Source: Bacteroidota bacterium (GTDB taxonomy: Bacteria; Bacteroidota; Bacteroidia; 2-12-FULL-35-15). Taken from it: DNA of 64,000 nt. Below are positions 9,180 through 42,235 of this stretch, piece by piece. Location: assembly GCA_029237775.1 (NCBI GenBank), contig JAQZBR010000002.1, positions 186,001 to 250,000 of the forward strand, given 5' to 3'. Below the pieces are notes generated by a model. It worked only from the letters and a program-made list of their open reading frames with translations, did no database searches and was not told where the DNA came from. The position numbers and the translations under genes are program-made. Position 1 is the stretch's first letter, and every line of letters starts with the position of its first letter.

Positions 9180-9752
9180 CTATATCAACTCCTCATCATC
9201 CATACTTCCAACCTGCTCCTTAACCTCCACGTAATGATTTAAAGTTACCAGGAATTGAGCGGTGGAGTCGAAGGTCGGTTCTTCGATCATCTTCGTTTCC
9301 TTGTTAACGTGGAATTCGATTGTCGCCAGCTGAAGGATACTGCCATTAGAGAATGTCAGGATCATTTCCATCGGCATATAATTCTTTTCTTCGTTCGGCT
9401 CATAATTCTCGTCCAGATCCTGGTAGAAGTTCCATTGAAATTTGGCATCCGTGATCTTTTGTCCGATCAGAGCTTTTATCCCTTCCACATTTTCAGCTTC
9501 GAGGTTCATCATTTTCAGGTCGCGGGTGACATCCTCAATTTTTCCGTAATGCACATCATAGAATTGTTTTTCCTTGTCCCAGCCGAATGTTACGATCTCT
9601 TCACCAAACGTAAGCTGAATTCCGAGGTCGAGCACCCAGATCTTCTCTTCATCAAACACCCAGAACTTTTCTGATGCATTGTAAAATTCGATGTGTGTGA
9701 GCTCTTTGTTAAGAAGGGTGTTTTTGAGTTTGGTTTCGGTTTCTGTCGACAT
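9180..9752 (-). CDS. Hypothetical cytoplasmic acidic protein
   Basis: I do not recognise this 190-residue protein. I chose the start at 9752 (MSTETETK) because the longer open frame to 10034 runs through a dispersed palindrome and has no protein-like character. It is acidic, lacks a signal peptide or membrane segment, and mixes beta strands and helices (FWVFDEEKIWVLDLGIQL, YMPMEMILTFSNGSILQLATIEF). It ends in MDDEELI. The pattern of 'IWVLDLGIQLTFG' and 'GSILQLATIEF' could be a two-repeat beta domain. Its end meets the PH-domain gene tail to tail. Confidence 0.6.
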   Translation of the reverse strand: MSTETETKLKNTLLNKELTHIEFYNASEKFWVFDEEKIWVLDLGIQLTFGEEIVTFGWDKEKQFYDVHYGKIEDVTRDLKMMNLEAENVEGIKALIGQKITDAKFQWNFYQDLDENYEPNEEKNYMPMEMILTFSNGSILQLATIEFHVNKETKMIEEPTFDSTAQFLVTLNHYVEVKEQVGSMDDEELI

Positions 9753-9828
9753 GATCTTTGTTTTAAGAAGAGTAAAGGTAAAAGAAAACAGCTTCAGGTG
9801 GTCCACAATAATACACACCCTAACCCCT

Positions 9829-9862
9829 CTCTCCGAAGGAGTCCTTTTGACGAGAGGGGGAA
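9829..9862 (+). repeat. Dispersed palindrome (CCCCTCT...AGAGGGG)
   Basis: CCCCTCT (9834-9840) pairs with AGAGGGG (9853-9859). Related CTCTCC/GGAGAG sequences occur at 23046-23070 (inside cinA), 26450-26478 and 56278-56305. The rest of the 315-base gap 9753-10067 holds no gene I can support and probably contains the promoters of both divergent genes; no exact TAnnTTTG is seen. Confidence 0.6.
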
Positions 9863-10067
9863 TGGATTTCGAATGAAAATTACAACTCATAGTTGAAATC
9901 TTCAGGTGACTCGTCTCCGAACTCCCAACTAATTGTAGAAAATACTTCACGTAAAAATACGTAAGCCTTGATGCAGTAAGGGGCCTCCGGCTGGCATTAT
10001 TTTTTTGCGTAATCATTACCTCAAAATCCATCAAAATTTTGAATTAGCTAACTAAAAAATCTATCCT

Positions 10068-11510
10068 ATGGAACACAAAAACGGTAAAGATCACGGCACT
10101 GCACAAAAACATTCATCTGAAAAAGACGAAAAAAGCAAATCTGCTAAATCGACATCAAGCGTTGATGTAAAAGGCAGCATAAAATCTAAGTCATCGGCAG
10201 AAGATGATAATTCTGAAAACGAAAAAGAGAACACCAAAGGCAAAAATGCTTCTGGAACATCCGCTCAGCAAAATAAACAAAACCAGGGATCTGAAAAGGA
10301 ACATAATTCTAATTCTGAATGGGATATCAACCAGAATAATGAAGGCGGACAAGGGTTTCATCACGATCACGGAAGACACAAAGGCGGAAACGGTCATAAT
10401 GGTGGTCCGGGTATGCAGCAGGAATTCGGTCAAAACTGGCAAGCGCGAAATGACGGAACTGATATGAGTCAGGGTAATCAGAATCAAGGCTACGGGCAAA
10501 ACTGGCAAGGCAATAATTCTGGGATGAATCAGGGTTACAGGAACCAGGGTTACGGACAAAGTCAAGGTAATTACAATCAGGGAGGTTATGGTTCAGGATC
10601 CGGACAAGGATATGGACAACAAAACTTCAATCAGGAATTTTATAATCAGGGTGGAAACGATTCAGGAATGAACCGCGGAAACTATAATAACCAAGGGGGA
10701 TACGGAAATCAAGGCTATGGCCAGGGACAGGATAATTACAACCAGGGTGGATATGGTTCAGGGATGAATCAGGGAAATTACGGCAGACAGAATTCCGGCT
10801 CAGGAATGAACTTCGGAGGTTATGGTGTTCAGGGAAGATATAGTGAAGGCGGATACGGAAATATCAGCTCGGGCTCAAGAATGAGTGAAGGCAATTATGG
10901 AAATCAGGGTAACTATGATCAGGGAAATACTCACCGCGGATCTTATGGATCGCAGGGCGGATACGACCAGAGCGGTTATCGTCAGCGGGAAGAAGAACAT
11001 TTTCATGGAAGCCGTGGGTACAGCCATCGCAACTCAGGTGGATATAATGGAGACGATTATAATTCAGGAATGAATCAGCGCGGTTATCGTAATGAAGGCG
11101 GGCGAGGATATTCAACCCGTGGAGGCAACGAAGGCCGTGGTTCTTACGGACATGAGTCCGGAATGAATCAGCCATCTTATAACAGCCGTGTGCAATCACG
11201 CGATGACGATAACTTCGGTTACAATGCTGAAGGACGCGGTGGACAGGGAGATGAGATCTACGGCCAGTACAGCGGCAGCACACATGGCAACCGTGGCGGA
11301 AGCAGAAATTTTGAGCGTAACAGAGACTTTGGCGGATCGCAGTTTGACTCCGATTATGATGATGATTACGGAAGATCAGAGTTCGACAACACCGGAGGAC
11401 GCGGAAACCGCAGTCAGTACAGCAGCAACAACGACCGTAATGACTACGGAAATAATTATGGTGGAAGCTCCCGTTCCGGAAGACAGAACAGAGGCTTCAA
11501 CAGATATTAA
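10068..11510 (+). CDS. FUS-like low-complexity protein (Gly/Asn/Gln/Tyr/Ser-rich with RGG motifs)
   Basis: A 480-residue, fully hydrophilic protein with no signal peptide, no membrane segment and no globular domain I recognise. Residues 1-80 are rich in Lys, Ser and Glu. From about 120 to 330 there are degenerate repeats around SGMNQG, NQGGYG, NQGYGQ and GNYGNQG. From about 330 to the end Arg appears in RGG/GGR contexts (GYSTRGGNEGRG, GNRGGSRNFERN, GGRGNRSQ, GRQNRGFNRY) with an Asp cluster (SDYDDDYG). Tyr-rich prion-like repeats followed by RGG boxes is the composition of FUS-type RNA-binding, condensate-forming proteins; the function here is inference. Its biased composition keeps other frames open, and those are shadows. 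A strong terminator follows. Confidence 0.7.
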   Translation: MEHKNGKDHGTAQKHSSEKDEKSKSAKSTSSVDVKGSIKSKSSAEDDNSENEKENTKGKNASGTSAQQNKQNQGSEKEHNSNSEWDINQNNEGGQGFHHDHGRHKGGNGHNGGPGMQQEFGQNWQARNDGTDMSQGNQNQGYGQNWQGNNSGMNQGYRNQGYGQSQGNYNQGGYGSGSGQGYGQQNFNQEFYNQGGNDSGMNRGNYNNQGGYGNQGYGQGQDNYNQGGYGSGMNQGNYGRQNSGSGMNFGGYGVQGRYSEGGYGNISSGSRMSEGNYGNQGNYDQGNTHRGSYGSQGGYDQSGYRQREEEHFHGSRGYSHRNSGGYNGDDYNSGMNQRGYRNEGGRGYSTRGGNEGRGSYGHESGMNQPSYNSRVQSRDDDNFGYNAEGRGGQGDEIYGQYSGSTHGNRGGSRNFERNRDFGGSQFDSDYDDDYGRSEFDNTGGRGNRSQYSSNNDRNDYGNNYGGSSRSGRQNRGFNRY

Positions 11511-11517
11511 AAAATAA

Positions 11518-11554
11518 AAAGCGCTATCGTAGTGATAGCGCTTTCTCTTGTTTT
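11518..11554 (+). terminator. Rho-independent terminator
   Basis: An 11-bp stem AAAGCGCTATC/GATAGCGCTTT (11518-11528, 11534-11544), 5-base loop, then CTCTTGTTTT. It lies between the two low-complexity genes, so the second is reached only by read-through or from its own promoter. Confidence 0.85.
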
Positions 11555-11572
11555 ACACTTAAAAATAAAAAT

Positions 11573-12493
11573 ATGATAGAGCAAAGAAACGATTATAACA
11601 GAAGAAGAAAGGATGCATCTTCTTCACATGGCCGAAGCAACCCGAACTGGGACCAGCAACAACGCTCAAACGAGGACTGGAGCCGTTCAAACCGAAACTC
11701 CAATTATTCTGATTATGATAATGATTATCGAAACAGAAGTAATGACTTCGACAATGACCATTATCGCACCTATGATAATCAGCGTGATCGCGGATATAAC
11801 AACTCCGGTTCAGGCTTGCAGGGATATCGTACGAATGGATTTAGCAGATCAGATAGTGATGATGATTACTATGGAGGAACAAGCAAAAGAAATTATTATG
11901 GCGACAGCGGCCGCAGATATTCAGGATTTTCCGACAACAGCATGTATGAAGATGAATACAATGGAGGAGGAAGCTCATCCTATAACAACAGTTCCTACAC
12001 ACCTTCAGACTGGAATGATGATGAAGACTATAAGGGAAGCAACAGAAATCAGTCTGGCTGGAACAGATCCTCTCAGCGTAACGGAAATGATTACCAAAGC
12101 AGAACTAATGACCGCTCATACAGCAGAAACTATAATGGCGAGCGAAACGATGATGACAGAAATATTTTCGAACGAGTGGGCGACAGGGTCAAAAGAGGCT
12201 TCAACAACATGCGTGAGCGAATGAGAGATCGGGATCATGACGAACGCGGCTACAGATCAATTAACTCATACAGGGAAAACGAAAGCAACTATGACAATGA
12301 CAATTATAACCGCAGAAGCAGCTACAGCGATAACGATAATTATACTTCACTTAATTATGGTTCACGCGAAAGGGATGGCAGATTTCCTGAAGACCGTTCA
12401 CAAAGAACAAGACGGAACTTTGCAGAGTATGACCTTGATCAGTATGAAAATAATAACAGAAGAAGATCGGAACAGGAAGAAGATGCCTGGTAA
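11573..12493 (+). CDS. Low-complexity polyampholyte protein (Asp/Asn/Arg/Ser/Tyr-rich)
   Basis: A 306-residue disordered protein dominated by Asp, Asn, Arg, Ser and Tyr with alternating charges (YDNDYRNRSNDFDND, SDSDDDYYGG). One short stretch, about residues 196-225 (NIFERVGDRVKRGFNNMRERMRDRD), has the hydrophobic spacing of an amphipathic helix and could be the only folded or binding part. No signal peptide. Together with the preceding gene it forms a pair of Tyr/Arg-rich disordered proteins, and I infer a shared role in stress, nucleic-acid binding or condensates. I do not recognise a family. An open 203-codon frame inside it (11613-12224) is a composition artefact. Confidence 0.68.
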   Translation: MIEQRNDYNRRRKDASSSHGRSNPNWDQQQRSNEDWSRSNRNSNYSDYDNDYRNRSNDFDNDHYRTYDNQRDRGYNNSGSGLQGYRTNGFSRSDSDDDYYGGTSKRNYYGDSGRRYSGFSDNSMYEDEYNGGGSSSYNNSSYTPSDWNDDEDYKGSNRNQSGWNRSSQRNGNDYQSRTNDRSYSRNYNGERNDDDRNIFERVGDRVKRGFNNMRERMRDRDHDERGYRSINSYRENESNYDNDNYNRRSSYSDNDNYTSLNYGSRERDGRFPEDRSQRTRRNFAEYDLDQYENNNRRRSEQEEDAW

Positions 12494-12510
12494 ATAAACT
12501 TCTTGAAAAT

Positions 12511-12541
12511 AAAAAGGATGAACATTCGTTCATCCTTTTTT
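12511..12541 (+). terminator. Rho-independent terminator
   Basis: Stem AAAAAGGATGAAC (12511-12523) with GTTCATCCTTTTT (12528-12540), a 4-base loop and T run, 18 bases after the stop of the polyampholyte gene. Confidence 0.88.
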
Positions 12542-12626
12542 GTTCGTTTCCAAAGATCACCCTTTTTACAATTATTGATTCGCTATTCGTAAAATTCGCT
12601 ATTCGTAATTATGAAAGTCTTCGGTC

Positions 12627-14453
12627 TTAGTTTAACTCTGGGAGAGTATATTTCCTCCCCTTATTCTGTTTCTTCAGATAATCCATCAAAGGAGCAAAAT
12701 AATCAAGCATTGCTTTTGCGCTAAGCTCGCTGCCTGTTTTTTCCTTTAATAATTTCCTCCAGTCTGCACTTGCGCCCGGTTTCATGATCTCTCCAATGAA
12801 TTTACCAACTTCTTTATTGCCATAGTAGTTCGTGTTGTGCGGGTCCTGGTGAAGGATGTTCTTTGATATGTAATCATGTACCTGGAACAACAATACATAT
12901 GACAACGCATAATCATAATACTGTGCAGCATCATTATTTATGTGAGTTTTTGTCGCAGCATCACAAAACTCTTCTCCGCGGTTTGTTGGCGGAGCAATTC
13001 CCTGGTATTTTGCAGCGAGGTCCCACCAGCGTTTGTTGAACTGATCAGCAGGTAAATTCTCAGCATACAGATCATGTTCGAACATGCTCATTGTTCCTGT
13101 GCTGAACGGAATGAACACTACGTAGTTCAATGCTTCTTTCAGAAGTGTTTGCATTTCATCTGACTTGGTGTTTTTCGGAATAAGGTTTAGATTTTCCATG
13201 AAAGGTTTCTGCATCGCTGCCATTCCCATCATGCTTCCCAACGCTTCGTGATAAGCGCGGTTAGCACCTTCGCGTAAAAGGATAGGAACCTCAGGATTGC
13301 TATAGGATAAGTAGTAATAGATATGCCCGAGCTCATGATGAGATGTTTCATACCATTCGCTGTTCGGCTCTACGCTCATTAAAGAACGCACGTCCTGATC
13401 GTAATTCATGTGCCATGCAGAAGCATGATTGTTTTTCTTGTATTTTGCATCCGTGGGAGCAGGGTAGAGATCTGATTTTTCCCAGAATGATTTCGGAAGT
13501 TCCGGAAAACCGATGCTTACATAAAAACGCTCACCCTGCTTCACGATCCATTCAGCATCTTTCGTTTTTAACGCACTGTCAAGATTAATTCCTTTTACAT
13601 CCACAAGGCTCGTCCAGTCCTGACCCCAACGGTTAGGCAACCATTGTGCGGGGATCAGATCAGGAACTTCTTTCACACCATAACGCTTCGCGAATTCGTA
13701 ACGCGCATAAGTATGTAACTCTCGGAACAATGGCGAAAGCTCCTTATTGAATTTTTCAAGCATTTCTTTCATTTCCTGAGTGGTCATGCCATAATCAGAA
13801 ACCTGGTATTCAAAATAATTCTTGTACCCAAGCGCCTGAACGGTTTTATTTCGCAGATCACGAAGATGTACAAGCCCTTCTTTTAAGCCTTTACCAACTT
13901 CCTTACTCGATTCCCATGCTTTCAAACGCTTGCTCATGTCCTTCTCATCTGCAAGGATCTCATCGATCTTATTAGTTGAAACGGATTTACCATCGATCTT
14001 GAAATCGAAGCCGAACATGTCTTCAGTCTGCTTTGTTTCCGATTTAATCCGCTCGCTAACTACATCCTGAATGGTCGAAGGATTGTCAGCAGCTTTATAT
14101 AAAATGCTTTTTAATTGTTTCACCTGGATAGCAGTCAGCTCATCTTTCTTTTCGAGAAATCGTTTTGCTGTTGCAATGTTTTCCGCGCTACCTGAAAATT
14201 TCGAGTACTCTTCTTTGGCTTTGTTCGCAGCCGTAGCGTTAACTGTATCACCTTCTACGATATGTGTGTTTGATTTCCAGTCAGCTTCGTTCGCGATGAT
14301 GCTCAACTCCTGATATTTTTTGTTATAGCCGTCAAGGTACGTCTGAACACTGTCCTGAAGCGCTTTGTTTCCATTTTCATCCGAGTGATTTTTATCACCA
14401 CCGCATGAAAACAACAATGCAGATGCTGTAATTAGAATAAGATGTTTTTTCAT
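12627..14453 (-). CDS. M2 family metallopeptidase lipoprotein (ACE-like peptidyl-dipeptidase)
   Basis: A 608-residue zinc peptidase of family M2, the angiotensin-converting-enzyme family, releasing C-terminal dipeptides. The zinc site is HELGH (His373, Glu374, His377) within SHHELGHIYYYL, and the third ligand is Glu403 in REGANRAYHEALG; both match ACE motifs. The start at 14453 gives a lipoprotein signal (MKKHLILITASALLFSC), so it is probably a periplasmic or outer-membrane lipoprotein. The longer frame to 14480 is unlikely because a promoter box on this strand lies at 14478-14485. With the S8 and S46 peptidases it fits a peptide-degrading lifestyle. Confidence 0.93.
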   Translation of the reverse strand: MKKHLILITASALLFSCGGDKNHSDENGNKALQDSVQTYLDGYNKKYQELSIIANEADWKSNTHIVEGDTVNATAANKAKEEYSKFSGSAENIATAKRFLEKKDELTAIQVKQLKSILYKAADNPSTIQDVVSERIKSETKQTEDMFGFDFKIDGKSVSTNKIDEILADEKDMSKRLKAWESSKEVGKGLKEGLVHLRDLRNKTVQALGYKNYFEYQVSDYGMTTQEMKEMLEKFNKELSPLFRELHTYARYEFAKRYGVKEVPDLIPAQWLPNRWGQDWTSLVDVKGINLDSALKTKDAEWIVKQGERFYVSIGFPELPKSFWEKSDLYPAPTDAKYKKNNHASAWHMNYDQDVRSLMSVEPNSEWYETSHHELGHIYYYLSYSNPEVPILLREGANRAYHEALGSMMGMAAMQKPFMENLNLIPKNTKSDEMQTLLKEALNYVVFIPFSTGTMSMFEHDLYAENLPADQFNKRWWDLAAKYQGIAPPTNRGEEFCDAATKTHINNDAAQYYDYALSYVLLFQVHDYISKNILHQDPHNTNYYGNKEVGKFIGEIMKPGASADWRKLLKEKTGSELSAKAMLDYFAPLMDYLKKQNKGRKYTLPELN

Positions 14454-14477
14454 TTTTCTGTTTTTTATAAGGGAGAC

Positions 14478-14485
14478 CAAATGTA
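14478..14485 (-). promoter_or_regulatory. -7 box (TACATTTG) of the M2 peptidase gene
   Basis: Exact TAnnTTTG on the minus strand, 24 bases before the ATG at 14453. It supports the shorter start. Confidence 0.55.
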
Positions 14486-41458: not shown

Positions 41459-42235
41459 TCAAATGATTTTCTCGATAAGCAGGTTGACTACTTCTACTAA
41501 GATCAGAACAATTACCACAACCTCCAGGAAGGCGCTCTTTCGTTGATGCATCAGATCGATAAGGAGACTCATATTCTCCTTGATAATAGCCAGCTCTTCC
41601 TGAATATTTCTGTAACGGGCCTGCAAGTCAAATGTTTTTTTCAGCTCAATGTCGATCTTGTAAAGCTCTTCATCTTCCCATGTTTCGGGAACCGAATCAA
41701 AAATGTAAAGTGTGTCATTGATGCTGTTTCTGAAATTGATGATCTTCCCAATGAATTGATTAAGCTTTTTGCCCGAGAAATCCAGCTTGCCTTTTTGTTC
41801 CAGAAATAACGTGTGCTGATTGGTTGCCTGTAAAAGCAACTCAGTTTGATTCGAATAGTAATCCAGCGCAACCGATTGCGACACATTCAGCATTATTATC
41901 CTTAATCCCTCCACGCTTGGCTTAACTAGTTCAATTTTAGTGTGTCCGAATTTGTTTTCAGCGGCATTTGTTTCTACCCACAATTCATCTGTCAGCTGAC
42001 TCTCAAAATGATTTTTACAGTAGGGTTTTGCGAACTGAATAAAATCATTCACCTCTTTTTCGTTTGGGTTACTAAAGGCAACAACTCCGTAACGAAAAAC
42101 ATAGATAAACTGATAAGGGCCTGTTTCATAGAAAAGCTCATCCGAATCGGAATGGATCAGCGCTTTGTCATAAGAGGCTTTAAAAGCTTTTATGTCAATA
42201 CTGTCGGCTATCTGAGAGGATAATATTTTGAACAT
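41459..42235 (-). CDS. RMD1/DUF155 family protein
   Basis: A 258-residue protein of the RMD1/YagE (DUF155) family, known from yeast Rmd1/Sif2 and bacteria; the molecular role is unclear. Landmarks are FKASYDKALIHSDSDELFYETGPYQFIYVFRYGVVAFSNPNEKEV near the N-terminus, WEDEELYKIDIELKKTFDLQARYRNIQEELAIIKEN, a coiled coil, and one C-terminal membrane helix (FLEVVVIVLILVEVVNLLI) preceded by HQRKSA, typical for the family. It is likely an inner-membrane-anchored cytoplasmic protein. Confidence 0.88.
   Translation of the reverse strand: MFKILSSQIADSIDIKAFKASYDKALIHSDSDELFYETGPYQFIYVFRYGVVAFSNPNEKEVNDFIQFAKPYCKNHFESQLTDELWVETNAAENKFGHTKIELVKPSVEGLRIIMLNVSQSVALDYYSNQTELLLQATNQHTLFLEQKGKLDFSGKKLNQFIGKIINFRNSINDTLYIFDSVPETWEDEELYKIDIELKKTFDLQARYRNIQEELAIIKENMSLLIDLMHQRKSAFLEVVVIVLILVEVVNLLIEKII

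Follow-up and report, generated by a model that had tools for sequence, protein, structure and literature searches.

The window analysed here is a 64,000-nucleotide stretch of a Bacteroidota bacterium, and within it lie two adjacent genes, A and B, that encode long disordered proteins. Both reading frames are real, with the coordinates and lengths given in the initial annotation, and each gene has an intrinsic terminator of its own, as had been claimed. The genes and the features around them are as follows.

9180-10034, minus strand: flanking gene left of A, called from a TTG start; homology to the relative G009 starts at residue 114
9717-12626, no strand: segment missing in G009, whose syntenic site has 282 bp (L030:9018-9299) separating the same pair of flanks
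10068-11510, plus strand: gene A, a 480-aa disordered Tyr/Gly/Asn/Gln repeat protein
10068-10139, plus strand: conserved head of A (residues 1-24), MEHKNGKDHGTAQKHSSEKDEKSK aligned with MENKNSKDSTATAQKNSTEKAEE in G009; N-terminal comparison z = 3.4
10488-10967, plus strand: repeat core of A (residues 141-300), with NQGGYG, SGMN and GYG repeats
11518-11544, plus strand: intrinsic terminator 3' of A, between A and B
11573-12493, plus strand: gene B, a 306-aa Tyr/Arg/Asp/Asn disordered polyampholyte
12164-12235, plus strand: amphipathic helix of B (residues 198-221, within NIFERVGDRVKRGFNNMRERMRDR), an AlphaFold helix with block pLDDT 55-70
12511-12540, plus strand: intrinsic terminator 3' of B
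12627-14480, minus strand: M2 peptidase gene, the right flank

The suggestion that the two genes sit in an accessory patch was borne out by comparison with G009, which most flank identities place closest to the window genome, because 2.9 kb carrying A and B in the window is replaced by 282 bp there while the flanking genes are syntenic. The true start of the left flanking gene is probably the ATG at MSTETETK, the called TTG being too early. No A- or B-like protein was found near any of the further M2 loci that were read from relatives, and there is no tRNA in the window, so a tRNA-associated insertion is not supported. Two small repeats were also seen at this locus. Upstream of A, at 9820-9860, lies an inverted-repeat element (CCCCTCTC...GAGAGGGG) with a diverged second copy elsewhere in the window genome (C5:237013); it may be a small dispersed repeat and mark the insertion. 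Two copies of an exact 15-nt direct repeat, ATTCGCTATTCGTAA, 16 nt apart, lie immediately 3' of B at 12578-12608, on the border of the inserted DNA.

The product of gene A (GRAVY -1.85, Gly 22.1 %) is divided into a Lys/Ser/Glu head without Tyr, a Gly/Asn/Gln/Tyr core and an Arg-containing tail, in that order, with Tyr concentrated mid-chain and Arg in the tail. AlphaFold returned a mean pLDDT of 35.6 and no confident structure. Residues 141-300 are made up of G 31 %, N 17 %, Q 14 % and Y 12 %, and the head and Tyr-Gly-Gln-Asn repeats described initially are plainly present, the repeats occurring far above composition-preserving shuffles: NQG was observed 11 times (1.5 in shuffles), SGMN 6 times (0.04) and NQGGYG 3 times (0.0), and [GSNQ]Y[GSNQ] was found 24 times against 12.3 in shuffles. 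The codons that encode these peptide repeats vary and TRF detected no tandem DNA repeat, so it is at the protein level that the repeat pattern is kept. At 34 Q/N per 80 residues, A ranks at the top of 1,013 ORFs of the window genome; its G009 homologue has 35, and both proteins come out as having a prion-like Tyr/Gln-rich low-complexity domain by the criterion used for FET proteins.

Gene B was described as encoding a Tyr/Arg/Asp polyampholyte with one amphipathic helix, and composition, AlphaFold and hydrophobic moment all agree with this. Its product (GRAVY -2.24, Gly 7.5 %) contains R 15.7 %, D 13.4 % and Y 9.8 %, and its Q/N count of 21 is below the prion-like Q/N level. The AlphaFold model has a mean pLDDT of 38.6 and is disordered apart from the helix at residues 198-221 and a second, weaker helix at the C-terminus. 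The hydrophobic moment of the main helix is 0.58 compared to a shuffle mean of 0.26, and its hydrophobic positions are mostly retained in the homologue from relative G042 (region z = 10.8).

A and B are missed by standard homology searches because low-complexity corrections erase them. Whole-protein searches with A and B in 40 relatives gave no match, which for A was a false negative since the G009 homologue was missed, as it also was when the N-terminus of A was used as a protein query. That homologue (418 aa, L102:8970-10226) was found through the repeat-codon pattern, and its alignment with A gave z = 7.2 against locally shuffled sequence. A full-length homologue of B (321 aa, L048:8891-9856, contig JAJTCJ010000015.1) was found in G042 with the B helix alone as the query (E 2.9e-6), and its alignment with B likewise gave z = 7.2 against locally shuffled sequence. 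A profile of B run against 84,980 species genomes returned one confirmed match, the same G042 contig, and the B helix, searched against the whole class, yielded chance matches only, besides itself. Neither gene had a match in tblastn searches of plasmids or in viral contigs, and the latter gives no indication of a phage link. No Pfam, NCBIfam or PHROGs model matches A or B, a PDB sequence search with A found nothing and Pfam-type searches found no BON domain in either protein. A lead to SWFGD/BON-type stress proteins gave a single chance-level match in a helix search of plasmids and no relevant paper in the literature. The possibility that A and B are paralogues was rejected, as the two compare at z = 0.9 and the value for A against the G042 homologue of B (z = 3.7) is unconvincing.

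Hydrophilicity was compared across about 1,700 ORFs from 2 Mb of the window genome (about half of it), scanned as 1.27 Mb and then a further 0.78 Mb. No other ORF of this whole set is as hydrophilic as A and B, which have the lowest two GRAVY values among the 1,026 ORFs of the 1.27 Mb. The operational hydrophilin criteria are Gly >6 % and GRAVY <-1 (PMC4190154), and just 5 of these 1,026 ORFs pass them, A and B included; the other three encode a lysine-rich 91-aa protein, a secreted-looking Gln/Asn-rich protein adjoining a DUF892 gene and a CsbD protein. Just one more hydrophilin-like ORF, a weaker one, came from the remaining 0.78 Mb. Both homologues pass as well (G009 homologue of A, Gly 25.1 % and GRAVY -1.90; G042 homologue of B, Gly 16.2 % and GRAVY -2.08). 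However, the Hopp-Woods means of A (0.37) and B (0.75) do not reach the original cut-off of mean hydrophilicity >1, so the two proteins are labelled hydrophilin-type here and not members of the class. It should be noted that the accepted hydrophilins in the same study span -0.3 to 1 in mean hydrophilicity (PMC4190154).

Among the 36 genomes of the genus, the window genome included, A-type repeat clusters occur only in the window genome and G009, and B only in the window genome and G042. The pair, whose co-occurrence in other genomes had been named initially as a check, is therefore found together in only one of the 36, while G009 has just A and G042 just B. This bears on the proposal that A and B form an RNA condensate like those of FUS and EWS, in which A would be a sticker-and-spacer scaffold whose Arg/Gly tail binds RNA, with B as a client or tuner. 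The composition of A does resemble FUS, EWS and TAF15, with a Q/N- and Tyr-rich low-complexity stretch in the middle and Arg toward the C-terminus, and this part of the claimed likeness holds. There is also a precedent among Bacteroidota, as the disordered region of Rho in Bacteroides thetaiotaomicron condenses in starvation (PMC10284900), but there the disordered region is part of a conserved enzyme while A and B are wholly disordered and have no catalytic domain. A is, however, a bacterial, Asn-rich protein whose link to RNA is putative, and a Pfam search relaxed to E 10 matched neither protein, so that both lack an RRM and a RanBP2-type zinc finger. The C-terminus that had been called RGG-type is not borne out either, since A has 3 RGG compared to a shuffle mean of 1.55 and a shuffle maximum of 6, which is at chance level, and the G009 homologue has none. 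Since the pair is not conserved, RGG motifs are not enriched and an RNA-binding domain is lacking, the two-protein system as proposed is not supported, and a FUS-like condensate is considered an unlikely explanation of the two genes.

The context of the homologues points in a different direction. In G009, the homologue of A adjoins, in divergent orientation, the receiver gene of a signalling cassette. After the receiver come the genes for a CheB-CheR-PAS fusion, a PAS histidine kinase and a LuxR-type regulator, which complete the cassette, and then one for a protein of about 285 aa without a known family. In G042, the homologue of B lies directly upstream of these five genes, and DUF4142, CinA-C and DUF892 genes are also among its neighbours. 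The window genome has the cassette at C5:341-348 kb, on a different contig from A and B, surrounded by DUF892, DUF4142, CinA and cyanophycin-type genes and with no A- or B-like low-complexity gene beside it. DUF892 (YciF), DUF4142 and CinA are within 8 kb of the cassette in both the window genome and G042, and neither DUF892 nor DUF4142 was seen within the 20 kb read in G009. The cassette kinase is present in 3 of the 36 genus genomes (61-65 % identity), and these are exactly the three that have A, B or both. The probability of this by chance is 1.4e-4 if the genomes are independent, though the three may be close kin, which would weaken the co-occurrence. As for the idea of a two-protein stress system, the stress context stands, since homologues of A and B are each found beside the same cassette and DUF892 and DUF4142 are near it in two of the three genomes, but a conserved pairing does not.

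These data give real support from context to a stress reading of A and B. The explanation that we favor, at little better than an even chance, is that A and B are disordered hydrophilin-type stress proteins that serve as an accessory output of the stress-signalling cassette and possibly form gels. We infer that under osmotic, drying or stationary-phase stress both proteins would be expressed in quantity and would protect the cell by acting physically. A would form a water-holding Tyr/Gly/Asn/Gln mesh, which may set into a reversible gel or condensate, while B would be a charged spacer whose single amphipathic helix could dock on membranes or a partner. Hydrophilin-type proteins are a known kind and it is the link to the cassette that is new. 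One observation against this explanation is that in the window genome the pair sits away from the cassette. A bolder form of it holds that the CheB-CheR/histidine-kinase cassette has dedicated, interchangeable and fully disordered outputs, one of them prion-like, that form protective and reversible gels or condensates in the cytoplasm, making them the bacterial equivalent of the condensate and anhydrobiosis proteins of eukaryotes; this is regarded as doubtful. Through repeat pattern and context, two unannotated disordered families are tied to a defined signalling cassette, so that the role of bulk disordered proteins in bacterial stress survival becomes testable with two small genes, and if A does gel or condense it would offer a compact bacterial model for prion-like protein behaviour.

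Known stress proteins offer partial parallels to A and B. YciG is a hydrophilin of the sigma-S regulon (PMC5437024) encoded in the yciGFE operon (PMC6064147), and together with YciF it is a functional precedent for a stress role. The sigma-S regulon serves general stress responses in enterobacteria. YciG is also Gly-rich and very hydrophilic, and yciF shares its operon much as DUF892 lies near the cassette here. However, A and B have no similarity to the KGG-type family (no Pfam match), are far longer and rich in Tyr, Asn and Arg, and are linked to the CheB-CheR/kinase cassette and not to sigma-S. With the hydrophilin and LEA proteins they share disorder and the combination of high Gly and low GRAVY, and B further resembles yeast Hsp12 in its amphipathic helix (PMC6054528), though Hsp12 is small, has four helical regions and shows no sequence homology to A or B. 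By this analogy, the conserved helix of B suggests contact with a membrane or a partner.

A further possibility is that A and B are not bulk protectants but belong to the working of the CheB-CheR/kinase cassette itself, as its flexible scaffolds or its outputs, such as a substrate for methylation or docking. The adjoining of the homologues to the cassette in two genomes and the way in which the presence of A or B tracks the cassette kinase agree with this as well. On the other hand, the two genes are distant from the cassette in the window genome, and A- and B-type proteins interchange beside it without clear homology to each other. A bulk physical role such as hydration, crowding or gel formation fits this interchange better than specific docking, and a scaffold of the cassette is judged quite unlikely. 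It could also be argued that A and B are fast-evolving orphan genes of little or no function that are carried by recombination, given their very patchy distribution (three of the 36 genomes) and the one confirmed match to the B profile. This is very unlikely, as the open frames are long, the repeats are kept despite varied codons, the protein ends and the helix are conserved in the homologues, the terminators are good and the linkage to one cassette recurs. Secreted adhesive or matrix proteins commonly have Gly/Tyr/Asn-rich repeats, which together with a PorP/SprF gene nearby in the window counts for a role of this kind, but both proteins start with charged polar residues and not with anything like a signal peptide, no type IX sorting domain was found in either, and such a role is judged extremely unlikely.

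A short sequence element upstream of A also counts for the favored explanation of A and B as stress proteins. It has the pattern [CT][TA]GGCA[TC]-N1-3-T6 and was spotted by eye from some of its target genes. Sites of the element in the window are as follows.

9990-10006, plus strand: element GCTGGCATTATTTTTTT upstream of A, 78 bp before the gene; common to DUF892 and DUF4142 genes
42277, minus strand: element 42 bp before a DUF155 (RMND1/Sif2) gene (41459-42235, minus strand)

The element is found 46-49 bp before DUF892 and DUF4142 in the window genome and G042 alike, and a looser form precedes a receiver gene in G042. It has 11 matches in the 1.27 Mb of the window genome, and 6 of them precede a called gene start by 30-100 bp; for other orderings of GGCAT, such matches average 0.15 and never exceed 2. 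A seventh target, DUF892, was not counted since its ORF was called from an upstream start; the other targets include, besides the DUF155 gene, a glycine-zipper/OmpA lipoprotein, a fatty-acid hydroxylase and a short-chain dehydrogenase. The held-out 0.78 Mb contained one match and no gene target, and the element is absent before the A homologue of G009 and the B homologue of G042. Because it was found by eye from some of its targets and the held-out sequence gave none, the element is only suggestive as a link between A and the stress genes. A canonical sigma-54 site was considered and rejected on inspection, as the -12 element either lacks its GC dinucleotide or has it in the wrong place.

Two observations were made on the contig of the window genome that carries the cassette. 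A gene divergent from DUF892 (C5:334323-334850, L177) encodes a secreted-looking Gln/Asn/Gly-rich low-complexity protein that has a signal-like segment and, in the called frame, about 175 aa; it is a further candidate disordered stress protein. Between DUF892 and the cassette (L109:682-5280) lie genes for a peptidase S51 (cyanophycinase-like), a cyanophycin synthetase-like protein and an isoaspartyl-peptidase-like protein, which suggests that metabolism of a nitrogen-storage polymer is encoded close to the stress genes.
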